This document shows, one piece after another, positions 6,147 through 60,419 of a stretch of DNA of 64,000 nucleotides. The DNA comes from Caldicellulosiruptor owensensis OL. Its GTDB lineage: Bacteria; Bacillota; Thermoanaerobacteria; Caldicellulosiruptorales; Caldicellulosiruptoraceae. Position 1 is the first letter of the stretch, and each line of letters starts with the position of its first letter. The translations under genes and the position numbers were made by a program. Location: positions 1,532,501 through 1,596,500 of the forward strand of contig NC_014657.1 of assembly GCF_000166335.1 (NCBI RefSeq), written 5' to 3'. The notes below the pieces were generated by a model, which did not search any database, was not told where the DNA came from, and saw only the letters and a list, made by a program, of their open reading frames with translations.

Positions 6147-7331
6147 TCACTTGCCCCCTTTTTTCACGCTTTCATAAAGTGGACTCATTTCTCTTAATCT
6201 TGAAACAATTTCAGGCAAAACTTCTAATAGATAGTCTATATCTTCTTCGGTGTTATCTTCACCAAGTGTTATTCTCAAAGATCCATGAGCAACCTCATGT
6301 TCAAGTCCTATTGCCAGAAGCACATGTGAAGGGTCCAAAGACCCTGATGTGCATGCAGACCCGCTTGATGCTGCAATTCCTTTCATGTCAAGCATCAAAA
6401 GCAGGCTTTCACCTTCAATAAATTCAAATGAGAAGTTTGCATTGTTAGGAAGTCTTTTGTATCTGTCACCATTGAGTCGAACATAATCAATTTTGCTCAA
6501 CACTCCGTCAATGAGCTTATCTCTCAGTTTCTGAAGCTTTGCAGCATACTCAGAAAGATTCTGAGTTGCAAGCTCTATAGCCTTTCCAAGTCCAACAATC
6601 CCTGCTACATTCTCTGTCCCAGCACGCCTATTTCTCTCCTGTGCGCCACCATGCGAAAACGGATGAATCTTTGTCCCTTTTTTAATATATAGTGCACCAA
6701 CACCTTTTGGTCCATAGAATTTGTGAGCAGAAAGTGACAAAAGGTCGACACCCAAATCTTTTACATCAACAGGAATTTGACCAACTGCTTGAACAGCATC
6801 TGTATGAATGACTATTCCCTTTTCCTTTGCTATCTTTGCTATCTCTTTGACAGGCTGGATTGTTCCAATTTCGTTATTTGCAAGCATAACAGAAATTAAA
6901 ATTGTATCATTTCTTATTGCCTCTTTTATCTTCTGAGGGTCAATAATACCATCTGGCTCAACAGGAACATATGTCACTTCAAATCCTAAACCTTCAAGAT
7001 ATTTTAGAGGATGTAAAACTGCATGGTGCTCGATGGTTGTTGTTATAATATGCTTACCTTTATCTCTATTTGCAAATGCAACTCCCTTTAATGCCCAGTT
7101 ATCCGATTCTGTTCCACCGGAGGTAAAGTAAATTTCTTGAATATCTGCATTTAAGGCCTTTGCGACCCTTTCTCTTGCAAGCTCAACTGCTCTTTTTGCT
7201 TCTCTCCCAAGCTTGTAAATTGTTGAAGGATTACCATACTGCTCTGTCAAATACGGCATCATCTCATCCAATACTTCTTTTTTAAGAGGAGTTGTTGCTG
7301 CATGATCAAAATAAATAATTTTTCCTTCCAT
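6147..7331 (-). CDS. iscS: Cysteine desulfurase IscS/NifS family
   Basis: This PLP enzyme takes sulfur from cysteine as a persulfide and passes it to IscU and MnmA. From the preferred start the protein has 394 residues. The PLP lysine is K204 ([10 protein letters not shown]), the substrate-binding region is TSGGTESDN, and the catalytic cysteine is C327 (SGSACTSGS), in the long flexible loop of group I desulfurases. The ATG at 7331 lies 8-9 bases from GGGAG. An ATG at 7340 is too close to that site. Confidence 0.95.
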
Positions 7332-7395
7332 ATATATCATCTCCCATTATTTTTATCATTTTAGTAGGGTTTCTATAACTATTATACCCCTTTTT

Positions 7396-7848
7396 TTAGA
7401 TATAAAACATGTATGACTCATCTGCTGTCATCTTTTTATAATCATCAACCAAATCCTGGAGTGTGACAGAGTCCACAACGTTTTCTATTGCTTCTTTGAC
7501 CTTTTCCCAAACCTTTCTGGTAACACAAAACTCTGCTCTTGGACAATCAACCTTTTCTATATCATCTATACATTCAGAAGGCGAAAGTGACCCCTCAAGA
7601 GCTCTTAAAATCTCACCAATAGTAATTTTTGAAGGCTCTCTTGAAAGCATATAGCCACCCTGAGCACCTCTTATACTCTTGACAAGTCCTGCTTTTTTCA
7701 ACGCAGCAATGAGCTGCTCTAAATAATGCTCAGAAATCTCCTGACGCTCTGCTATGCTCTTCAAAGATACAAGCCCTTCATCATAGTGAAGCGCTAAATC
7801 AAACATTGCTCTGACACCATATCTTCCCTTTGTAGATAATCTGAACAT
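7396..7848 (-). CDS. iscR: Rrf2-family Fe-S regulator, IscR-like
   Basis: This is a 150-residue winged-helix regulator (RLSTKGRYGVRAMFDLA at residues 3-19) with three cysteines, C93, C102 and C108, in the place where IscR binds a [2Fe-2S] cluster. The role is likely repression of the isc operon when clusters are plentiful. The start is the ATG at 7848, 7 bases from GGAGAG; a TTG 15 bases upstream is part of the ribosome site itself. CymR (cysteine regulation) is a relative, but the three-Cys motif and the isc neighbours favour IscR. Confidence 0.88.
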   Translation of the reverse strand: MFRLSTKGRYGVRAMFDLALHYDEGLVSLKSIAERQEISEHYLEQLIAALKKAGLVKSIRGAQGGYMLSREPSKITIGEILRALEGSLSPSECIDDIEKVDCPRAEFCVTRKVWEKVKEAIENVVDSVTLQDLVDDYKKMTADESYMFYI

Positions 7849-7865
7849 ACTATATCTCTCCAATT

Positions 7866-7882
7866 CCGATTAATATACTCGG
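7866..7882. promoter_or_regulatory. Candidate autoregulatory operator of iscR
   Basis: This 17-bp imperfect palindrome has CCGA and TCGG arms, with 12 of 17 positions symmetric. It lies between the -10 box and the iscR ribosome site. The position suits repression by IscR. The motif itself has not been matched to a known site. Confidence 0.4.
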
Positions 7883-7892
7883 TTTTTATATT

Positions 7893-7922
7893 ATGATAAC
7901 ACCATCGAGGTGTATTTGTCAA
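7893..7922 (-). promoter_or_regulatory. Promoter of the iscR-iscS-iscU-mnmA operon
   Basis: On the minus strand, TTGACA (7917-7922) is a perfect -35 and TATCAT (7893-7898) is the -10, with 18 bases between, about 45 bases upstream of the iscR ATG. Confidence 0.7.
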
Positions 7923-7987
7923 GGAGGTTATGAATGGTGTCTCGGAAGTGTAACATCTCATTCAAGAGTCTGTATTTTAAAGTCAAA

Positions 7988-8016
7988 CAAAAAAGAGGCT
8001 GCTTTCACACAGCCTC
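7988..8016 (-). terminator. Terminator of the tRNA-Gln/tRNA-Glu transcript
   Basis: On the minus strand, GAGGCTG and CAGCCTC form a 7-bp stem with an 8-base loop, followed by six T. It lies 15 bases after the tRNA-Glu CCA end. Confidence 0.85.
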
Positions 8017-8031
8017 GGTGGTATTCATATT

Positions 8032-8107
8032 TGGTAGCCCTAAGGGGATTCGAACCCCTGTCTCCGCCGTGAGAGGGCGGTGTCCTGGGCCTCTAGACGA
8101 TAGGGCC
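8032..8107 (-). tRNA. tRNA-Glu (CTC)
   Basis: The cloverleaf is complete. The acceptor arms GGCCCTA and TAGGGCT have a G-T closing pair. The anticodon stem CCGCC/GGCGG carries the loop CTCTCAC, giving anticodon CTC. The T arm has GGTTCGAATCC. Discriminator A and an encoded CCA follow. Confidence 0.95.
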
Positions 8108-49416: not shown

Positions 49417-50235
49417 TTAAATAATCTCTATTAGATCACTAATTATTTTTATAAACCTCTCCTCAACCATCTTTGAAACTTCTATAACCTCTTCATGCGA
49501 AAGTTTTTTTTCAAGAATTCCTGCAGCCATGTTTGTAATACATGAAATACCAAAAACCTTAATATCCATTTGCCGCGCAGCAATAACCTCTGGCACTGTC
49601 GACATACCAACAGCATCAGCACCAAGAATCTTTAGCATTCTTATCTCTGAAGGTGTTTCATATGAAGGTCCTTTTAAAAATGCATAAACACCTTCTTTAT
49701 AATCAACGCCATTTTTCTTGTATACATCTTTTGCTTTTTCAATTATCTCTCTGTCATATGCATATGTCATATCAAAAAACCTTTCGCCAAATTTTTCTGC
49801 TTCTGGTCCAATTGCCGGGTTTTCTCCTGAAAGATTTATATGATCCTTTATTACCATTAAATCTCCGGGAGAAAGCAAAGGAGAAATTCCACCTGCCGCA
49901 TTTGTAACAATAAGGTTTTCAACTCCTAAAAGTCCTGCTGCCCTTACACCAAATACAACCTCTTCAATCTTATATCCTTCATAAAGATGAAATCTTCCCT
50001 GAAAGGCCAAAACCTCTCTTCCTTTTACTCTTCCAAAAACCAAGTTGCCTTTGTGTCCCTTGACAGTAGACACAGGAAAATGAGGTATTTCTGAATATTT
50101 GATTTCAATTTTATTTTCCATTGTATCCGCAAAACCACCGAGGCCACTTCCTAAAATAATAGCAATTTCTGGCACACTTGGAATCTTCCTTTTTATAAAT
50201 TCTGACGCTTCTTTTATCCTTTCATAATAGGACAT
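49417..50235 (-). CDS. pnp: Purine-nucleoside phosphorylase (trimeric class)
   Basis: The 272 residues have the PNP signatures LGSGLGGFAD, GRFHLYEGY, VTNAAGG, and near the end ISCITNMAAG. The Asn of this last motif reads 6-oxopurines, so inosine and guanosine (and deoxy forms) are the likely substrates. The product is ribose- or deoxyribose-1-phosphate for DeoB. The start is the ATG at 50235 after GAGGTG. It is the last gene of the nucleoside operon. Confidence 0.94.
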   Translation of the reverse strand: MSYYERIKEASEFIKRKIPSVPEIAIILGSGLGGFADTMENKIEIKYSEIPHFPVSTVKGHKGNLVFGRVKGREVLAFQGRFHLYEGYKIEEVVFGVRAAGLLGVENLIVTNAAGGISPLLSPGDLMVIKDHINLSGENPAIGPEAEKFGERFFDMTYAYDREIIEKAKDVYKKNGVDYKEGVYAFLKGPSYETPSEIRMLKILGADAVGMSTVPEVIAARQMDIKVFGISCITNMAAGILEKKLSHEEVIEVSKMVEERFIKIISDLIEII

Positions 50236-50252
50236 AAAAATCACCTCAATAG

Positions 50253-51434
50253 CTATTTTATCACAATTTCTTTTAAAAAACTCTCTCCAAACTTTAAAGG
50301 TTTAACATTCAAATACTCTGCTATTGTCTGACCAATGTCAGAAAAACTTTTTCTTATTCCAAGGTCATATCCTTTTTTGATATTCTGACCATACACAAGT
50401 ATTGGCACATGTTCACGTGAATGATCTGTTGAAGGTGTTGTCGGGTCACAACCATGGTCTGCAGTGATTATTAAAATATCATCTTTTTTAAGCTTTTCCA
50501 TGATTTCGGGAAGCCTTGTGTCAAAGTCTATCAAAGCCTTTGCATAACCATGAGGGTCATTTCTGTGACCATACAGCATATCATAATCAACAAGGTTTGT
50601 AAAAATTAGTCCTTTGTCAACTTCATCCATCACCTTCAAGGTTTTGTCAACCCCGTCCATGTTTCCTTCTGTGTGAATACTCTTTGTCAGTCCTCTTTTA
50701 GCAAAAATATCCTCTATCTTGCCTATTCCCACACATTCATAACCTACTTCTTTAATATTGTCAAGCAGCGTATTATAAGGTGGCTCAACTGCAAAATCTC
50801 TTCTGTTATAAGTTCTTACAAAACTGTTCCTATCTTGCCCCACAAATGGCCTTGCAATTACTCTGGCAACAAGATACTTTCCAACAAGAAGCTGCCTTGC
50901 TATTTGGCATATCCTGTAAAGCTCCTCAAGAGGAATAACCTCTTCGTGAGCAGCTATTTGAAATACAGAGTCAGCAGAAGTATAAACAATTGGATAGCCG
51001 GTTTTTATATGCTCCTCACCAAGCTCTTTTATTATCTCTGTACCAGATGCAACTTTGTTGCCAAGAACTTTTCTCCCAATCCTTTTTTCAAATTCCTGAA
51101 TCAAATCTTCAGGAAAACCATTTGGAAATGTCTTGAAAGGCTCTTCTAAAACAACCCCTGCAATTTCCCAGTGACCTGTGATTGTATCTTTACCTTTGGA
51201 CATTTCCTTGCTCTTGCCAAAAACCCCAACAGGGTTTGGATTAGGTGGAGTACCTTTAATATCTGTAATATTTCCTATACCGAGTTGATACAAATTTTTC
51301 AGTTCAAGTCCGCCTACAGCATATGAAATATTTGAAAGAGTATTACTTCCTTCATCACCGTAAAGATTTGCATCGTCCAGTGCACCAACACCCACACTGT
51401 CAAGTACAATCAATATAATTCTCATTTTAAACAT
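50253..51434 (-). CDS. deoB: Phosphopentomutase
   Basis: The 393 residues show the alkaline-phosphatase-like metal sites [13 protein letters not shown] near residue 8 and ITADHGCDP near 330. The enzyme turns ribose/deoxyribose 1-phosphate into the 5-phosphate. The start is either the ATG at 51434 (4 bases from GGAGG) or the one 9 bases inside (13 bases). Confidence 0.96.
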
Positions 51435-51469: not shown

Positions 51470-52135
51470 TTATTCGCCACCCACAATTGCAACACCATTG
51501 CTTGTTCCGATTCTGCTTGCGCCTGCTTGTATCATCAAAAGAGCATCCTCAAACGTTCTGATGCCACCCGACGCTTTAATTTTGACCCTGCTACCGACAG
51601 CCTTTCTCATAAGAAGTATATCCTCATACTTTGCACCGCTTTTAGAAAAACCTGTTGAAGTTTTCACATAATCAGCGCCTGCTGCGGCTGCAATTTTGCA
51701 TGCTTCTATCTTCTTTTCATTGTCAAGTTCAGAGGTCTCAATTATTACCTTTACTATTTTATTTGAATACTCTTTTGCAACATCAACAATGCTTTTTATC
51801 TCTTCGTAAACATAATCTGTATTTCCACTTAGCATAGCTCCAATATTTATAACCATATCTATCTCATCAGCACCGTTTTCAAAAGCTTCTTTTGCTTCAA
51901 ACACCTTTGTTTTAAGAGTGTTTGCGCCAAGTGGAAAACCTATCACAGTTGCCACTTTGACATTTGACTCTTTCAAATATTCCTTACACAATTTTACATA
52001 ATAAGGATTCACACAAACTGAAGCAAAAGAATATTTTAATGCCTCATCGCAAATCTTTTTTATATCTGCAGGTGTTGCAGAGGACCTTAAAAGTGTGTGG
52101 TCAATAAACTTTGCAATCTCTTCTCTGGTCATCAT
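51470..52135 (-). CDS. deoC: Deoxyribose-phosphate aldolase
   Basis: The enzyme splits deoxyribose-5-phosphate into acetaldehyde and glyceraldehyde-3-phosphate. It has about 221 residues with FIDHTLL at the start, the Schiff-base lysine region YVKTSTGFSKSGA and VKIKASGGIRT. Two adjacent ATG codons lie 5 and 8 bases after GGAGG; I used the first (52135). Confidence 0.96.
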   Translation of the reverse strand: MMTREEIAKFIDHTLLRSSATPADIKKICDEALKYSFASVCVNPYYVKLCKEYLKESNVKVATVIGFPLGANTLKTKVFEAKEAFENGADEIDMVINIGAMLSGNTDYVYEEIKSIVDVAKEYSNKIVKVIIETSELDNEKKIEACKIAAAAGADYVKTSTGFSKSGAKYEDILLMRKAVGSRVKIKASGGIRTFEDALLMIQAGASRIGTSNGVAIVGGE

Positions 52136-52152
52136 GTTCCCCTCCACGTAAT

Positions 52153-53478
52153 TTAAAATTCAAAAACATTGTCTTTTGTTATCTTTGCAAATATTACTTT
52201 TCTTTTTGGAACAGGCCTCTTAGAAAACTCAAATGCAGTTTTCACATCTGAGATGGCTTCTTCAAGCCTTTTTTCATCATTTGCATAGATTTTAGCAAAC
52301 GGCATATTCTTGGCTATTTTGTGGCCTATTTTACCAAAAAGTTGAATTCCAACCGCATAGTCAATTTTGTCTTCTTTTCTTTGTCTTCCTGCTCCAAGTT
52401 TTAATGCGCAAAGCCCAAGTTTGAGTGCATCAATATCTTTTATATACATATCTTCATCGCATTTTAGTTCATAAGTATATTTGGCTTGTGGCAGCAAAGA
52501 ATAATTGTCAACTATTTCAGGGTTTCCACCCTGGTTTTTTATAATTTCTTTAAACTTTTCAAGAGCATATCCTTTTTCAATGCTCTCAATTGCTCTTTCT
52601 TGTGCTAATTTTTTCTCCTTTTCAACTCCAGCCATAATCATCATCTCAGATGCAAATTCAATACAAAGATTCTTCAAATCTTCATGTCCTCTGCCTTTCA
52701 AAACTTCTATTGCTTCAATAACCTCAAGAGCGTTGCCAATCATAAGACCAAGCGGCTGGTTCATATCTGTAACATAAGCGATGGTCTCTCTTCCTACCAA
52801 AGTTCCAATCTCAACCATAGTATTAGCAAGCTCTTTTGCCTTTTCATACTCTTTCATGAAAGCACCTTTGCCAAACTTGACATCAAGTATTATTTTGTCG
52901 CTCCCAGCTGCAATCTTTTTGCTCATGATAGAAGATGCAATAAGTGGTATAGATTCAACTGTAGCTGTGACATCTCTCAAAGCATATATCTTTTTGTCTG
53001 CAGGAACAAGGCTTTCTGACTGCCCAACAATTGCCGCACCAACTTTATTTACAGCTTCTATAAACTCATCTTCTGAAAGCTCTGTTTTAAAACCTGGGAT
53101 TGACTCCAACTTGTCAATTGTCCCACCTGTGTGAGAAAGCCCTCGTCCTGACATCTTTGCAACCTTTACACCGCAAGATGCTGCCAGTGGTATTAAGACC
53201 AGGGTTGTTGTATCAGCAATACCACCACTTGAGTGTTTGTCAACCTTTACACCCTCTATACTGCCCAGGTCTACCATCTTGCCTGATTTTGCCATGAGCA
53301 TGGTAAATTCTACTAATTCTTCTTTTGACATTCCCCTAAAATATATAGCCATCAAGAAAGCAGACATCTGATAGTCTGGAATTTCACCTTTTACATACCC
53401 GTTTACAATAAATTCAAGTTCTTCTTTGCTCAAGATATCTCCATCTCTTTTTTTTCTAATAATCTCCGTCACCAGCAC
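52153..53478 (-). CDS. pdp: Pyrimidine-nucleoside phosphorylase
   Basis: The protein has about 441 residues with the family motifs KHSSGGIADTTTL, KMSGRGLSHTGGTIDKLESIPGF split over residues 80-125, and the KMIDAVGR-like lysine region. It cleaves uridine, deoxyuridine and thymidine. Several GTG codons compete for the start (53487, 53478, 53472); 53478 has the best spacing to AAGGTG. Confidence 0.94.
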   Translation of the reverse strand: MLVTEIIRKKRDGDILSKEELEFIVNGYVKGEIPDYQMSAFLMAIYFRGMSKEELVEFTMLMAKSGKMVDLGSIEGVKVDKHSSGGIADTTTLVLIPLAASCGVKVAKMSGRGLSHTGGTIDKLESIPGFKTELSEDEFIEAVNKVGAAIVGQSESLVPADKKIYALRDVTATVESIPLIASSIMSKKIAAGSDKIILDVKFGKGAFMKEYEKAKELANTMVEIGTLVGRETIAYVTDMNQPLGLMIGNALEVIEAIEVLKGRGHEDLKNLCIEFASEMMIMAGVEKEKKLAQERAIESIEKGYALEKFKEIIKNQGGNPEIVDNYSLLPQAKYTYELKCDEDMYIKDIDALKLGLCALKLGAGRQRKEDKIDYAVGIQLFGKIGHKIAKNMPFAKIYANDEKRLEEAISDVKTAFEFSKRPVPKRKVIFAKITKDNVFEF

Positions 53479-53496
53479 GCCTTTCACCTTCTTGCT

Positions 53497-53695: not shown

Positions 53696-54112
53696 TCATC
53701 TTCCTTTCAAGTCAAATCCGTATGGCAAAAGCTCTTTGCTATTAGTCTCTATTACTTTTGTCATATTACAATTTGAAAGATAAATGGTGCTATTTCTTGC
53801 AAGTTCAAATATCACCTGTCTGCACGCACCACACGGCGATATAGGCTCATTCTCAGGACCGATTATATAAAGAGCTTTTATTTCACTTTCACCTTCTGAT
53901 ATCGCTTTAAAAAGTGCGATCCTTTCTGCACACATGGAAAGTGAATATGAAGCATTTTCGACGTTGCACCCTGTATACACTTTGCTACTGTTTCCAACAG
54001 CTGCTGCTCCAACCTTGAAACAGGAATATGGTGCATATGCCTTTTTTTGAGCTTCTTGAGCTAAGGTCAAAAAATATATAATTGTATCATCAACTTTGTC
54101 CAAATACCTCAT
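53696..54112 (-). CDS. cdd: Cytidine deaminase
   Basis: The 138 residues have the zinc-site motifs GCNVENASYSLSMCAERIAL near residue 55 and PCGACRQV near residue 92. It turns (deoxy)cytidine into (deoxy)uridine for the pyrimidine phosphorylase of the same operon. GAGGG lies 8 bases before the ATG. Confidence 0.95.
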   Translation of the reverse strand: MRYLDKVDDTIIYFLTLAQEAQKKAYAPYSCFKVGAAAVGNSSKVYTGCNVENASYSLSMCAERIALFKAISEGESEIKALYIIGPENEPISPCGACRQVIFELARNSTIYLSNCNMTKVIETNSKELLPYGFDLKGR

Positions 54113-54115
54113 TTT

Positions 54116-54847
54116 TTATACCCTCTTTCTCACAATGTAGAATCTGAATTTCCTGGGTGAAAAATAATTTGAAGAATACAAAATTGGAATGTCGTTTTGG
54201 TCAAAATGAACCTGGTCAAGTAAAAGAACAACATCGTTCTTTTCAAGCTCAAGCTTTTTATACACATTATTTTTCTCAGCAAGCATAGGAATGATATCAG
54301 AGATTGCATATGCAATATATATTCCCATTGTGTCATTCAAATAGTCAAACAATGACTCTCCTACAAATTTAAACTCAAATGAAAAGAGCTTTGCAGGAAG
54401 TCTATCAACACAATAAACAACGGGAATACTTTCCGCAAGTCGTACTCTTTCTATTTTGATAATCTCTTCAGTTGATGGTATTCTGAGCATATGAGCCTCT
54501 TTTGCGTTAGGATAGGTTTTGGTCACAACAACATCTTTGGTGTGTGGCTTGTACCCCTGCTTTTCCATTAATTTTGTTATACTCTGAAGCTCTTCCATTC
54601 CAGATTGTAAAATTGGCCGTGATGATACAAAAGTCCCAACACCATGTTTTCTTACAACATATCCTTCTTCTTCTAATATTCTTAAAGCCTCTCTGAGTGT
54701 TGCTCTGCTCACACCAAAAAACTTTGCCAGTTCCAGCTCAGAAGGAAGCTTGTCACCTTCTTTAAATTTTTCCTCAATGAGTTGCTTTAACTTCTTTAAC
54801 ACAAGTTCATACCTTTGGGGATATCCTACTGATTCAAAACTTTTCAC
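54116..54847 (-). CDS. GntR-family (HutC-type) transcriptional regulator
   Basis: The 243 residues have a winged helix at about 5-75 (KLPSELELAKFFGVSRATLREALRILEEEGYV) and a UTRA-type effector domain (about 95-240), the HutC subfamily. It lies inside the nucleoside operon and probably controls it through the palindrome at 60291-60317. The GTG at 54847, 6 bases after AGGTG, gives MKSFESVGYPQRYELV. Upstream extensions overlap the permease gene. Confidence 0.9.
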   Translation of the reverse strand: MKSFESVGYPQRYELVLKKLKQLIEEKFKEGDKLPSELELAKFFGVSRATLREALRILEEEGYVVRKHGVGTFVSSRPILQSGMEELQSITKLMEKQGYKPHTKDVVVTKTYPNAKEAHMLRIPSTEEIIKIERVRLAESIPVVYCVDRLPAKLFSFEFKFVGESLFDYLNDTMGIYIAYAISDIIPMLAEKNNVYKKLELEKNDVVLLLDQVHFDQNDIPILYSSNYFSPRKFRFYIVRKRV

Positions 54848-54869: not shown

Positions 54870-55799
54870 TTATTTTTTGGGCCTGTAAGGAATACCGTCG
54901 GCAGCAGGCGCAACGCTCTTGCCACCTATTCCAATCAATGCTAATATTGTAACTACATATGGTAGCATCATGATAATGTTTTTTGAAATTGAAGACTCTT
55001 GCAATGTATAGCTCAGAGCTGTTGCAAAACCAAACAAAAGTGATGCCAAAAATGACCCAACCGGTGTCCATTTACCAAAAATCATGGCAGCTAAAGCTAT
55101 ATAACCTCTTCCTGACGACATCTCAGGTGAAAAACTGTTCAAAACACCAATTGAAAGATAAGCACCACCAAGTGCAGAAAACGCCCCGCCCAGAATAACA
55201 CCCAAGTATTTCATCTTTACAACATCGATACCTGCTGTCTCAGCAGCTTCTGGATTTTCGCCCACAGCTCTAAGCCTCAAACCTATGGTTGTCTTGAATA
55301 AAAACCACTGGCTAAGTATTATCAAAACAAACATTATATAAACCATCACATTTTGTCCGCTCAAAATCTGACCAATTACAGGAACCTTATCTATAATAGG
55401 TATTCTAACATCAGGAAGTTTGGGTGTGTCAAAAGGTGTTCCTTCCGGGCCATATATGGCATTAAAAAGGTAAGCAGTGATACCAGACGCAAATATGTTA
55501 AAAGCCATACCAAGGACTATCTGGTTTGCATACATTTTTGCAGCCGCCCATGCAAATACATATGCTACCAAAATACCAGAGATTACTCCCGCTAAAAGTC
55601 CAAGCCATGCATTGTGAAAGTATGCCGAAAATGCAACAGAAACAAATGCCGAAATTAGCATTATTCCTTCCATAGAAATATTGACAACGCCAGCTCGTTC
55701 TGAAAAAGTACCGCCAATTGCCGGAAGTGCAAGCGGTACTGCCATTGCAACGGTTGACGCCCACAAATACGGGTTTGCAAAAATACTGAGTATATTCAT
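54870..55799 (-). CDS. Nucleoside ABC transporter permease (NupQ/BmpD-like)
   Basis: The 309 residues form about nine membrane helices and the inner-membrane permease repeats of BPD_transp_2 (ISMEGIMLISAFVSVAFSA near residue 40, GENPEAAETAGIDVVKMKYL near 180). It pairs with the second permease downstream in coordinates but upstream in the transcript. Confidence 0.92.
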   Translation of the reverse strand: MNILSIFANPYLWASTVAMAVPLALPAIGGTFSERAGVVNISMEGIMLISAFVSVAFSAYFHNAWLGLLAGVISGILVAYVFAWAAAKMYANQIVLGMAFNIFASGITAYLFNAIYGPEGTPFDTPKLPDVRIPIIDKVPVIGQILSGQNVMVYIMFVLIILSQWFLFKTTIGLRLRAVGENPEAAETAGIDVVKMKYLGVILGGAFSALGGAYLSIGVLNSFSPEMSSGRGYIALAAMIFGKWTPVGSFLASLLFGFATALSYTLQESSISKNIIMMLPYVVTILALIGIGGKSVAPAADGIPYRPKK

Positions 55800-55800
55800 C

Positions 55801-56877
55801 TTATTCTTGCCCTCCTACTGGTTGCAACTTTGTTTTTCCGGTTCTAATCTTTTCCATAATAATCCTATAAAGCTCTTCAATTGCAATGAAGAATATTATA
55901 AGTCCCACAACAACATCGGCAAGCTGACCAGAGATATTTGTTTGCATCTGCATTTCCTGTGCACCTGTTGAAAGTCCTGCCAGGAAAAGTGCTGCTATTA
56001 CAACACCTATAGGATTGTTGTTTGCAAGAAGTGCAACAACTATAGCAGTATACCCATAACCTGAAGTAAAGCTATCATATAGTCTGTACTGCACACCCAT
56101 TATCTGAACAGCACCAGCAAGACCAGCAAACGCGCCTGAAAGCCCCATAGCCAGAACAAGTTTTTGTGCAACGTTCATGCCAGCATACTTTGCAGCTTTG
56201 ATATTAAACCCTACTGCTCTGAGTTCGTAACCTAATGTTGTTTTGTACATGAGAATATAAACCACCACAACTGCCAGGATTGCAATGAAAAGTCCACTTG
56301 ACAGTTGTGTATTTGGTACCAAAGTATTTAATTTTGCACTGTTTTGAATCACTGGTGATTGGGGTATTGTTCCTTTGTCCATCATTGGACCGCCTTCTAA
56401 CAAATAGTGGCTAAAATAGATAGCTATATAGCTCATCATCATAGTTGTGATAACCTCATGAGCACCAGTGTAAACCTTTGCAAGCCCAGGAACAACTCCA
56501 CCCCACAGTGCACCTGCTATCATAGCGCACACAATTATTAGAGGAATGTGTAAAAACCACGGAAGACCCTTTATCTGGTACCCAAGATAAGTTGCAACAA
56601 TTGCGCCTATCCAAAACTGTCCTTCAGCACCAATATTAAAAAGCCCTGAAGAAAATGCTATTGCAACCCCAAGCCCAGTTATTATGAGCGGTATTGCGTT
56701 TGTGAGGGTTGTTGCAAAGTTCATTAGATTTCCATAAGCGCCGCTAAAAAGTGCCAAATACGCATAAATGGGATTTTGTTTTGCTGTGATTAATATTACT
56801 ATTCCACCTACAATCATGGATATAAAAATTGCAATAAGGGGCATTAAAATACTCTGCAAAACCTTTTTTACCATCAC
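55801..56877 (-). CDS. Nucleoside ABC transporter permease (NupP-like)
   Basis: The 358 residues have about ten membrane helices, with NIGAEGQFWIGAIVATYLGYQ near residue 85 and RAVGFNIKAAKYAGMNV near 225. One base separates its stop from the second permease start, so translation is likely coupled. The start is a GTG at 56877 or the ATG three bases later. Confidence 0.92.
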   Translation of the reverse strand: MMVKKVLQSILMPLIAIFISMIVGGIVILITAKQNPIYAYLALFSGAYGNLMNFATTLTNAIPLIITGLGVAIAFSSGLFNIGAEGQFWIGAIVATYLGYQIKGLPWFLHIPLIIVCAMIAGALWGGVVPGLAKVYTGAHEVITTMMMSYIAIYFSHYLLEGGPMMDKGTIPQSPVIQNSAKLNTLVPNTQLSSGLFIAILAVVVVYILMYKTTLGYELRAVGFNIKAAKYAGMNVAQKLVLAMGLSGAFAGLAGAVQIMGVQYRLYDSFTSGYGYTAIVVALLANNNPIGVVIAALFLAGLSTGAQEMQMQTNISGQLADVVVGLIIFFIAIEELYRIIMEKIRTGKTKLQPVGGQE

Positions 56878-56880
56878 TGT

Positions 56881-58392
56881 TTAGGCCTCCTTCTTTTTCT
56901 TGCCTATCATCAAAAGCCCTATTTCTTCTTTTGTTGCATTCTTGCTCTCCAAAATATCCATAATCCTGCCCGAATACATCACAGCAATCCTGTCAGAGAG
57001 GTTCAAAATCTCATCAAGCTCTAAAGAAACAAGCAATATAGCTTTGCCTCTGTCTCTAAGCTCAATCAGTTTTCTATGGATGTACTCTATAGCCCCCACA
57101 TCCATTCCTCTTGTTGGCTGAACAGCAATTAAAAGGTCTTGATTGCTTGAAAACTCTCTTGCCAAGATTACCTTTTGCTGATTGCCACCTGAAAGGTTCT
57201 TTGCAAACAGCTTGTAATCAGGTGGACGCACATCAAATTCATGTATGAGTCTATCTGCTTCTGAGATTATTGTCTTATAGTTTAAAAAAGCTTTATTAGA
57301 ATATGGCTTTTTATAGTATCTTTTGAGCACAATGTTTTCTGCCACTGTAAAGTTCAAAACAAGCCCGTCCTGCTGCCTGTCTGCTGGAATATAAGCAATC
57401 CCTTTTTCATAACATTTGCGGGTGGGAAGGTTTTGAATCTCTTGCCCGTTGAAAATTATCTTCCCTGTTGATGAAATAAGTCCAACAATAGCTTCAACAA
57501 GCTCATTTTGACCGTTTCCATCAACACCTGCTATCCCAAAAATTTCTCCTCTTCTTATTTCAAAACTTACATCTTTGACTTTTTCAACACCGTTTTTCAA
57601 TCTGACTGAAAGGTTTTCAACCTTTAACACAGTCTCTCCTAACCGCGGTTCACTCTTTTCAACAACAAGTTTAACTTCTCTTCCAACCATCAAATTCGCA
57701 AGTTCCTGTTCGTTTGTTTCTTTGGTGTTCAAGGTTTTAATTGTCTTTCCTCTTCTCATAACAGTAACTCTATCTGAAATTTCCATAACCTCATCAAGCT
57801 TATGGCTTATGAATAAAATAGATATACCCTGACTCTTTAGATTATTAATAATCTTAAAAAGCTCTCTTGTCTCTTGAGGTGTGAGCATTGCTGTTGGTTC
57901 ATCAAGTATTAAAAGCCTTGCATCTCTATAAAAAGCCTTTAATATCTCCACTCTTTGTTGCATACCAACACTCAAATCTCCCACCTTGGCCTTCGGATCA
58001 ATTTCCAAATTATATTTTTTCGAAATTTCAAGAATTTTTTTCTCAGCCTCCTGAACATTAAATCCAAAACCTTTTGGCTCAAATCCCAAAACAATATTTT
58101 CAGCCACCGTAAATACAGGTATCAACATAAAATGCTGATGAACCATCCCTATTCCTTTTTCAATCGCTTCATGAGGACCTTTGACCTCAAGTTTTTGCCC
58201 CTCAAAATATATCTCTCCAGAATCAGGAGTGTAAAGACCATAGATGATATTCATTAAAGTAGATTTTCCAGCACCATTTTCCCCAAGTATGGCATGTACC
58301 TCACCTTTTTTGACATCCAAACACACATTATCATTTGCTTGAATATCACCAAATCTTTTAGAAATACCTTTGACCTGCAAAATGTACTCCAT
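56881..58392 (-). CDS. Nucleoside ABC transporter ATP-binding protein (NupO-like)
   Basis: The 503 residues have two ABC domains. The first has Walker A GENGAGKST, signature DLSVGMQQR and Walker B LLILDEPT. The second has a degenerate Walker A (GVDGNGQNE), signature NLSGGNQQK and a changed Walker B (LLIAVQPTRG). This arrangement is usual for CUT2/BMP-type transporters. The ATG at 58392 is 9 bases after AGGTGG. Confidence 0.93.
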   Translation of the reverse strand: MEYILQVKGISKRFGDIQANDNVCLDVKKGEVHAILGENGAGKSTLMNIIYGLYTPDSGEIYFEGQKLEVKGPHEAIEKGIGMVHQHFMLIPVFTVAENIVLGFEPKGFGFNVQEAEKKILEISKKYNLEIDPKAKVGDLSVGMQQRVEILKAFYRDARLLILDEPTAMLTPQETRELFKIINNLKSQGISILFISHKLDEVMEISDRVTVMRRGKTIKTLNTKETNEQELANLMVGREVKLVVEKSEPRLGETVLKVENLSVRLKNGVEKVKDVSFEIRRGEIFGIAGVDGNGQNELVEAIVGLISSTGKIIFNGQEIQNLPTRKCYEKGIAYIPADRQQDGLVLNFTVAENIVLKRYYKKPYSNKAFLNYKTIISEADRLIHEFDVRPPDYKLFAKNLSGGNQQKVILAREFSSNQDLLIAVQPTRGMDVGAIEYIHRKLIELRDRGKAILLVSLELDEILNLSDRIAVMYSGRIMDILESKNATKEEIGLLMIGKKKKEA

Positions 58393-58411
58393 ATTCATGT
58401 CCCACCTGTCT

Positions 58412-59152
58412 TTATATTCTTTTTATTATTTCAATGATAACCTTTTTGAGCTTTTCTACATTTTCAGAAAACACTCTCAAAACTTCTTCATGGGAAACAG
58501 GTTTTATATCTGGGTCATCTTCTAATCCAGCATCATAGTCTGTAACAAGAGTAATATTTAAATACCTTATCCTTAGCTCATTTGCCAAGGCTACCTCAGG
58601 ATACTGTGTCATTCCAATTACGTCAAACCCTGCCTTAGAATACCATCTACTCTCTGCTAAAGTTGAAAATCTTGATCCCTGAATAACAACACATGTACCT
58701 TTTTTGTGAAATCTAAAACCAAGTTCTTCTAAAACCTTGATTGCAATCTCTCTCATCTCTGGGTCATAGGGGTGAGCCATCAAAGTATGTCTTACATTTC
58801 CAATATATGAAAATGTGTCATCCCGCCCCCATGTTCTGTCAACAAATTGGTCAACAACCACGAAATCACCTGGTGAAATTTCTTTTTTCAGACTCCCGCA
58901 AGCTGTTGTGGAAATAATCTTGTCAACGCCAAGCTGTTTTAATGCATATACGTTTGCTTTGTATGGCACTTTGTGAGGGGGATAAATATGCTTTTTACCA
59001 TGTCTTGGTATAAAGGCAACTTCTTTTCCTTCTACCGTGGAGATTGCTATTTTATCACTTGGTTTACCATAAGGTGTTTCAATCTCAAGTTCCTCAAAAT
59101 TCTCCAAAAAAGAATAAAATCCCGAACCACATATTATTCCTATCACCTGCAA
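58412..59152 (-). CDS. MTAP/PNP-family purine phosphorylase
   Basis: The 246 residues have the MTAP-type motifs FIPRHGKKHIYPPHKVPYKAN, STTACGSLKKEISPGD, GSRFSTLAESRWY and VTDYDAG. The Asp in the last motif is the residue that reads a 6-amino group, so adenosine or methylthioadenosine is more likely than inosine. It starts at a TTG (59152) or a GTG 6 bases inside. Its position between the binding protein and the ATPase gene says nucleoside salvage. Confidence 0.85.
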   Translation of the reverse strand: MQVIGIICGSGFYSFLENFEELEIETPYGKPSDKIAISTVEGKEVAFIPRHGKKHIYPPHKVPYKANVYALKQLGVDKIISTTACGSLKKEISPGDFVVVDQFVDRTWGRDDTFSYIGNVRHTLMAHPYDPEMREIAIKVLEELGFRFHKKGTCVVIQGSRFSTLAESRWYSKAGFDVIGMTQYPEVALANELRIRYLNITLVTDYDAGLEDDPDIKPVSHEEVLRVFSENVEKLKKVIIEIIKRI

Positions 59153-59240: not shown

Positions 59241-60263
59241 TTATTTTACCTCTGTTGGTATCTTTATCTTTCCAGCCTTTATATCTGCTATTACCTTGTT
59301 TATCTTATCATTCAAGCTCTTTGGAACACCTTTCATGAATGGAGCAAGTCCAACACCGTTGTTCTTAAGGTCAAAATAAACAACACCGCTCTTGAACTTA
59401 CCGTTTAATGTATCTTTTATAATGCTGTATGTTGCAACGTCAACTCTCTTCATCGCAGAGGTCACAACAGTGTTTGGTGCAACATAGCTTTGGTCTGAGT
59501 CAACACCGATTGCATAAACTCCCTTTTCTTTAGCAGCCTGAATAACACCAAGACCTGTCTGACCCGCAACCTGGAACACAAAATCCGCGCCTTGTGCTAT
59601 CTCAGAAAGAGCAACCTGTTTACCTGATGCTGGGTCGTCAAACTTGCCAGTGTATTTGATTATAACTTTTGCTTTTGGAATCTCACTCAAAACACCAGCT
59701 TTAAACCCTGCAATGTACCTGTCAACTGGCGGAATTTTCATACCACCTGCAACGCCAAACACGTTCTTTCCAGTTGTCTTTGCAAACTTTGCCTTTTCAA
59801 GCGAAGCAACAGCAACACCTGCCAAATACCCAGCTTGTTCTTCCCTGAACATTGCCGAAACCACGTTTGGAAGATCTGAAATCTCAGAGTCGATGATCAG
59901 GAACTTTGTCTTTGGAAACTGTTTTGCAACTGTCACAACTGCATCGTGCATCATAAAACCAACTGCAATGACCAAGTTATAATTTGCTTTCGCAAGCTTT
60001 TGTAGATTCGGAATGTAGTCTGTCATCTGCTTTGACTGAATAAGAGTTGTTTTGATTTTTAGTTCCTTCTCTGCCTTCTTCATTCCCTCATATGCCGACT
60101 GGTTAAAACTTCTGTCATTGACACCACCAACGTCTGTAACAAGCCCTACCTTGAAGTTTGCATTTGACGTTGAACCACTTGCCTTGTTCCATGAAACATT
60201 TAAGCTCAACAAAAGCGCAGCAATTACAACGAGACTCAAAACCGCATATAATTTTTTCTTCAT
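59241..60263 (-). CDS. BMP-family nucleoside-binding protein of an ABC transporter
   Basis: The 340 residues have an N-terminal hydrophobic signal (about 5-22) and the Bmp fold (KVGLVTDVGGVNDRSFNQSAYEG, near residues 38-60; VGVDSDQSYVAPN-like region near 250). It binds nucleosides for NupOPQ-like proteins. Unlike most Gram-positive BMP proteins there is no cysteine in or after the signal, so no lipobox. It is the first gene of the operon, so the most abundant product. Confidence 0.92.
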   Translation of the reverse strand: MKKKLYAVLSLVVIAALLLSLNVSWNKASGSTSNANFKVGLVTDVGGVNDRSFNQSAYEGMKKAEKELKIKTTLIQSKQMTDYIPNLQKLAKANYNLVIAVGFMMHDAVVTVAKQFPKTKFLIIDSEISDLPNVVSAMFREEQAGYLAGVAVASLEKAKFAKTTGKNVFGVAGGMKIPPVDRYIAGFKAGVLSEIPKAKVIIKYTGKFDDPASGKQVALSEIAQGADFVFQVAGQTGLGVIQAAKEKGVYAIGVDSDQSYVAPNTVVTSAMKRVDVATYSIIKDTLNGKFKSGVVYFDLKNNGVGLAPFMKGVPKSLNDKINKVIADIKAGKIKIPTEVK

Positions 60264-60290
60264 AAAAACAAACCTCTTTTTTAATTTTTA

Positions 60291-60323
60291 GATGTCAGAC
60301 ATCTAATATCTGACATCTGACAT
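60291..60323. promoter_or_regulatory. Operator-like palindromes downstream of the nucleoside-operon promoter
   Basis: GATGTCAGA (60291-60299) and TCTGACATC (60309-60317) are a perfect 9-bp inverted repeat with a 9-base gap. Inside it GATGTCAGACATC is a 13-bp perfect palindrome, and TGACATC followed by TGACAT continues outside. The site starts five bases after the -10 box, so a bound protein would block transcription. The best candidate is the GntR/UTRA protein of the same operon. Confidence 0.7.
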
Positions 60324-60327
60324 TACT

Positions 60328-60356
60328 ATTTTATAATCTTTGTTCAAAAAAGTCAA
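60328..60356 (-). promoter_or_regulatory. Promoter of the nucleoside operon
   Basis: TTGACT (60351-60356) and TAAAAT (60328-60333) are 17 bases apart on the minus strand. Confidence 0.8.
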
Positions 60357-60390
60357 TATGAAAATTTATAAATTTGTGAATTATAATTAT

Positions 60391-60419
60391 AAAAGGCTGC
60401 CTCTGAATAGCAGCCTTTT
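60391..60419 (-). terminator. Terminator of murT-gatD
   Basis: AAAAGGCTGC (60391-60400) pairs with GCAGCCTTTT (60410-60419), giving a 10-bp stem with 9-base loop, 16 bases after the gatD stop. Confidence 0.85.

Follow-up and report, generated by a model that had tools for sequence, protein, structure and literature searches.

An array of 7-bp units in the promoter of the nucleoside salvage operon of Caldicellulosiruptor owensensis was identified as, with high probability, the operator of the GntR repressor encoded within the same operon. This assignment, proposed in an earlier note on this DNA, was upheld by conservation of the site and by the probable orthologue NupR of Bacillus thuringiensis, which is reported to bind the same pattern in EMSA (PMC9430930). 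The system is a thermophilic, catabolism-linked relative of the described NupR kind, to which the earlier note made no reference, and not wholly new; what is new here is the catabolic operon, the heptad rule, the change in copy number and the breadth of occurrence, and no description of the heptad rule or of copy-number variation was found in the cited literature.

Architecture of the operon, its promoter and the heptad array

The operon lies on the minus strand of the window, the whole 64-kb stretch of DNA analysed, and comprises the following genes in order of transcription:

59241-60263, minus: bmpA, nucleoside-binding lipoprotein, first gene of the operon (Pfam Bmp)
58412-59152, minus: nucleoside phosphorylase, MTA phosphorylase-like (Pfam PNP_UDP_1)
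56881-58398, minus: ABC transporter ATPase (Pfam)
55801-56877, minus: ABC permease 1 (Pfam BPD_transp_2)
54870-55799, minus: ABC permease 2 (Pfam BPD_transp_2)
54116-54847, minus: gene of the predicted GntR/HutC (UTRA) repressor, NupR-type (Pfam, orthologues, structural model and fold)
53696-54112, minus: cdd, cytidine deaminase (Pfam)
52153-53487, minus: pdp, pyrimidine nucleoside phosphorylase (Pfam)
51470-52147, minus: deoC, deoxyribose-phosphate aldolase (Pfam)
50253-51434, minus: deoB, phosphopentomutase (Pfam Metalloenzyme)
49417-50244, minus: punA, purine nucleoside phosphorylase (open reading frame; syntenic in relatives)

We take the gene at 50253-51434 to be deoB from a reading of its sequence and gene context, and that at 49417-50244 is presumably punA from a reading of its sequence. 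Pfam analysis bore out the earlier claim that a GntR/UTRA protein is encoded in the operon, where it accompanies a bmp-ATPase-permease-permease gene set, the arrangement by which the NupR type is recognised. The promoter and operator elements are as follows:

60351-60356, minus: -35 hexamer TTGACT (sequence, promoter scan; invariant in 11 genus sequences)
60328-60333, minus: -10 hexamer TAAAAT, 17-nt spacer (sequence, promoter scan; invariant in 11 genus sequences)
60315-60321, minus: heptad unit 1, GTCAGAT, with AT before it at 60323-60322 (sequence; conserved)
60308-60314, minus: heptad unit 2, GTCAGAT (sequence, alignment; consensus score 14/14 together with unit 1)
60301-60307, minus: heptad unit 3, ATTAGAT, degenerate, GTTAGAT in most relatives (sequence, alignment)
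60294-60300, minus: heptad unit 4, GTCTGAC, perfect core (sequence; the single GATGTCWGACATC of each genome)
60288-60306, no strand: perfect 19-bp palindrome TTAGATGTCAGACATCTAA, centre 60297 (palindrome scan)

The promoter recognised earlier (TTGACT, 17 nt, TAAAAT) was recovered both in the sequence and by promoter scan, and GATGTCAGA (60291-60299)-N9-TCTGACATC (60309-60317) and the 13-bp palindrome GATGTCAGACATC (60291-60303) are all present. These nested palindromes are real, but the perfect palindrome extends to 19 bp and lies in a heptad array, and the distance of five bases given between the -10 and the outer palindrome required correction, as this palindrome ends 10 nt from the -10 while the first half-site of the array (60323) is 4 nt away. 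After the -10 and AGTA, the minus strand from 60323 to 60287 reads AT, GTCAGAT, GTCAGAT, ATTAGAT, GTCTGAC and ATCTAAA, such that the array starts 4-6 nt past the -10 of the bmpA promoter and holds the nup site (GTCWGAC core plus second heptad). The direct repeat CTGACAT, found twice at 60310-60323 and overlooked in the earlier note, identifies the site as an array of 7-bp units, and three or more short direct repeats stand in the operator, as in tandem-repeat sites. Since GTC and GAC half-sites are spaced at 7-bp intervals, palindromes arise both inside units and over unit borders, and the nested palindromes are two views of one heptad structure.

Palindrome scanning of the 64-kb window showed TTAGATGTCAGACATCTAA to be its sole odd palindrome having arms of 9 bp. 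As AT-rich sequence of this length should contain approximately 0.5 such palindromes by chance (estimated from base composition), symmetry and length alone prove little, and conservation and position carry the case. The 19-bp palindrome is probably the primary dimer site, and the promoter-proximal units, with GTCAGAT cores one base off GTCAGAC, are likely secondary sites. In Bacilli copies of the operator the symmetry is stronger about the unit border than within the unit, which leaves the exact dimer register uncertain. The GTCWGAC core has GT-3nt-AC spacing in place of the GT-4nt-AC typical of HutC operators, the latter being the usual and not the sole spacing (PMC4494728).

Further upstream, a stretch of about 40 bp beyond the -35 (window 60357-60395, CTTTTATAATTATAATTCACAAATTTATAAATTTTCATA) hardly varies within the genus and may be an UP element or the site of another regulator. 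The G+C-rich inverted repeat AAGGCTGCTATTCAGAGGCAGCCTTTT (minus strand, window 60390-60413), which lies between gatD and the bmpA promoter, resembles a terminator of the upstream genes and is absent from the terminator-scan list.

Operator conservation within and outside the genus

A search of the BmpA protein against 61 genomes found bmpA in 10 other genomes of the genus, and in all 10 the array follows a near-identical promoter. GATGTCWGACATC occurred exactly once per genome, always at the bmpA promoter, in 11 of the 12 genus genomes, while its reversed-pattern control gave zero matches in genus genomes. Alignment showed that unit number differs between species by exactly 7 bp, with one extra unit in G008 and a unit missing in G001, a pattern that slippage would produce; up to five heptad units were observed, their copy number varying within the genus. 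In the twelfth genome (G007), bmpA, the phosphorylase, one permease and part of the ATPase have been lost, yet gntR (82% identical) is kept together with a variant operator, in which one perfect and one near-perfect GTCWGAC palindrome lie 21 bp, or three units, apart.

The nucleoside operon of G007 is decaying (L092:7055-8796). Besides missing bmpA, the first phosphorylase and permease 1, it has remnants of the ATPase and of permease 2 joined in a single 291-aa frame (7169-8044), while gntR, the operator and the catabolic genes are retained. In G001, the one genome with an operator one 7-bp unit short, gntR (L093:7065-7800) is frameshifted near codon 42 through either mutation or sequencing error.

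Outside the genus, promoters were scored against the consensus RTCWGAY x2, fixed beforehand from the window, at a threshold of at least 13 of 14 positions. All 24 clostridial GntR+bmpA operons reached this threshold, examples being GTTAGATGTCAGACAA in Thermoanaerobacter and GTCAGATGTCAGACATC in Thermosediminibacter, as did 57 of 60 such operons in Bacilli, where gntR comes first and bmpA after (ACATCAGATGTCTGATGTC, for example). Dinucleotide shuffles reached the threshold once in 480 (clostridial) and twice in 1200 (Bacilli) trials. The search for the motif in relatives that had been suggested earlier found it conserved at each level (11/12, 24/24 and 57/60). The site was absent from 11/11 Bacilli gntR promoters without adjoining bmpA (Fisher p 1.4e-10) and from 8/8 bmpA promoters of operons that lack this GntR (Fisher p 1.8e-9), both p values overstating independence as the species are related. 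Two Alkalicoccobacillus genomes carry the operator GGTCATCAGACATCTGATGAC before a distant, relocated bmpA and not before gntR, and a bmpA copy of B. stratosphericus scores 13/14. The operator thus follows the transporter gene, as expected if nucleoside uptake is regulated in trans. In Bacilli, the distances obtained by automatic -10 assignment were scattered, and this assignment was discarded.

In Thermoanaerobacter leaders (L014-L022, from operator to bmpA start), a hairpin shows covariation between its arms (GTTTACTACTT/AAGTAGTAAAC versus GTTTACCGA/TCGGTAAAC) and precedes a GGTAAC that does not vary; the four clostridial loci checked matched no Rfam family.

Pattern searches of the C. owensensis genome found no second convincing operator, and extra targets such as the nupC genes of NupR were not among the sites found. 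Two-mismatch matches equalled the reversed-pattern control in number and the other one-mismatch matches inspected overlap reading frames. One candidate with two heptad pairs 37 bp apart (G000:C1:510691-510741) was rejected because it lies inside a HEAT-repeat reading frame. Control therefore looks local, and multiple targets characterize the B. thuringiensis regulon, not the family as a whole. The main text of a paper on Caldicellulosiruptor bescii regulons (PMC8579813) does not mention nucleosides.

Regulator, effector and alternative explanations

The 54116-54847 protein carries a GntR winged helix (PF00392) and a UTRA domain (PF07702) by Pfam and belongs to the GntR/HutC subfamily. Its structural model (mean pLDDT 80) matches the fold of NagR/YvoA and DasR, and its effector domain superposes at 2.3 A rmsd on that of DasR in complex with glucosamine-6-phosphate. 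Judging from Bacillus gene order, its Bacilli orthologues presumably occupy the place of YmfC, behind spoIIIE. When 299 genomes were searched for the site of NupR itself, just two carried it with one mismatch; these probably lie outside the B. cereus group, and in both the site stands before gntR-bmpA and the leader holds a purine riboswitch. The window protein shares 44% identity with Bacilli orthologues that have this gene order, a near-identical site and the riboswitch, and on gene order, riboswitch and site the window GntR is probably orthologous to NupR. In B. thuringiensis BMB171, NupR is reported to repress its own operon (gntR-bmp-ATPase-permease-permease), most of its EMSA-verified sites, such as AAAGGTCAGACATCTTACGT and ACAGGTCTGACGTCTATCGT, show the same heptads, and the nupR leader is reported to hold a purine riboswitch (PMC9430930). 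The 54116-54847 protein very probably binds the heptad site. Purine riboswitches were also observed in nupR-like gntR leaders of three Bacillales genomes (L222:1147-1248, L223:2449-2550 and L225:2465-2566); riboswitch and operator on the same gntR operon amount to two purine-linked controls.

NagR grips the phosphate of its ligand by Thr90, Arg133, Arg135 and Ser165 together with helix dipoles (PMC4333415). The equivalents R134, R136 and S165 are each conserved in 81 of 81 sequences, T91 is Thr in 76 and Ser in five, and all four stand at the corresponding helix ends and strand of our model. This NagR-like set favours a phosphorylated effector, although UTRA proteins that bind carboxylates may retain the same Arg and Ser residues. 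Of the earlier prediction of release by a nucleoside or sugar phosphate, the phosphorylated ligand is thus the favoured part, whereas the nucleosides and bases tested did not release NupR (PMC9430930). That the effector is a pentose phosphate we consider evenly balanced. Ribose- and deoxyribose-phosphates would be natural candidates, deoxyribose-5-phosphate, suggested previously, being only one of them; as a sole signal it is weakened by changes in nupR having altered ribonucleoside use and not thymidine use (PMC9430930).

A paralogue of this GntR (40-41% identity) was observed in a Thermoanaerobacter operon of apparent 5'-deoxynucleoside salvage (L100:5977-12765 and L101), with a 27-bp perfect-arm palindrome AGAACAACTTGTCAGACAAGTTGTTCT of the same core before its class II aldolase gene. 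From its class II aldolase, MtnA-like isomerase and MTA phosphorylase, we take this operon to serve methylthioadenosine/5-deoxyribose salvage. The salvage operon and shared core again point to nucleoside-derived pentose phosphates.

Alternatively, operator and repressor may act as proposed with zinc as the signal, as published for NupR, which Zn2+ reversibly frees from DNA with increased promoter activity at 50 uM (PMC9430930, available part). We consider this unlikely, as full release of NupR in vitro needed 5 mM Zn2+ in that account, where the release tests named cover nucleosides, bases and metals with no mention of pentose phosphates (PMC9430930); moreover, zinc lacks an obvious tie to nucleoside catabolism and the NagR-like phosphate pocket is conserved in 81/81 sequences.

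In our proposed mechanism, a dimeric GntR/HutC repressor encoded mid-operon would bind the perfect GTCWGAC palindrome, placing the operon under autogenous control, and further dimers would probably fill the heptad units as far as the -10. With transcription starting 7 nt past this hexamer, near 60321 by prediction, the array would lie at about +1 to +35, a classical repression position that implies repression, and bound repressor could block open-complex formation or early elongation. Imported nucleosides would be phosphorolysed to ribose- or deoxyribose-1- or -5-phosphate, and the phosphorylated pentose may enter the UTRA domain at the pocket equivalent to the GlcNAc-6-phosphate pocket of NagR; ligand binding would then swing the DNA-binding domains apart and induce the operon. 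Binding in this species, the mode of repression, cooperativity and the effector are what we infer from these comparisons. As a tentative and somewhat doubtful generalization, NupR-type repressors might bind as side-by-side dimers on heptads about two-thirds of a turn apart, with repression tuned between species by slippage that adds or removes a unit, and a pentose phosphate, not zinc, as the signal.

The palindrome could also work as RNA, with a 5' leader hairpin stabilizing or attenuating the operon mRNA, and the Caldicellulosiruptor-type leader does form a 13-bp hairpin (-17 kcal/mol, z -3.65). This is very improbable, as leaders of Thermoanaerobacterium (z -0.76) and Thermosediminibacter (z -0.84) retain the heptads and lack the hairpin, no U run follows it, and an RNA hairpin is the automatic product of any palindromic DNA site. 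Least probable of all is that the site serves a different regulator, for example of DeoR or PurR type, with the GntR gene a bystander located mid-operon about 5 kb from the operator, since in Clostridia and Bacilli alike the site occurs along with this GntR and bmpA, the core has the GT-Nx-AC form of GntR sites (PMC4494728) and NupR binds the heptad pattern in the EMSA noted above.

With the GntR repressor as the preferred reading, nucleoside salvage gains a regulator, an operator and a likely class of signal, both in thermophiles of the Caldicellulosiruptor and Thermoanaerobacter types and in many Bacilli, and one operator rule (RTCWGAY heptads) ties Clostridia to an experimentally studied B. 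thuringiensis protein. The effector question, phosphate pocket versus zinc, is now directly testable, and for work in thermophile hosts a thermostable repressor paired with a single-target operator would make a convenient sensor component.

Comparison with known systems

The closest described system is NupR of B. thuringiensis BMB171, which shares with the present one a GntR/HutC repressor in an operon with a bmp-type lipoprotein, an ATPase and two permeases, a GTCWGAC core plus second 7-bp unit, and probably also autoregulation and a role in nucleoside uptake. In contrast to NupR, the operon described here includes the whole catabolic pathway (cdd, pdp, deoC, deoB and punA) with the regulator in mid-operon, no purine riboswitch was seen before bmpA, the array has up to five units of variable copy number, and one site was found in the genome where NupR has many targets.

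NagR/YvoA and DasR are GntR/HutC sensors of GlcN-6-P or GlcNAc-6-P (PMC4333415) that share with the window protein the fold and, in the effector site, every side chain that contacts the phosphate. Identity is about 27% and the sugar-contact positions differ (NagR Glu145 corresponds to Cys146 here), and the operator is GT-3nt-AC in place of the dre site.

Short-repeat operators are also known in the GntR family from E. coli NanR, three dimers of which bind (GGTATA)3 side by side, cooperatively and about half a turn apart (PMC8012715). NanR belongs to the FadR subfamily and its cooperativity operates through an N-terminal extension, whereas the present array combines a 7-bp period with palindromic symmetry. 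Within HutC, NagQ and SdhR have repeat-type sites (PMC4494728), and as in our operator these are repeats (TGGTATT) or palindromes with added symmetry; the NagQ/SdhR-type palindrome site TCTTATGTCTTATATAAGACATAAGA also shows a 7-bp repeat, while sequences, hosts and pathways differ from those of the heptad system described here.
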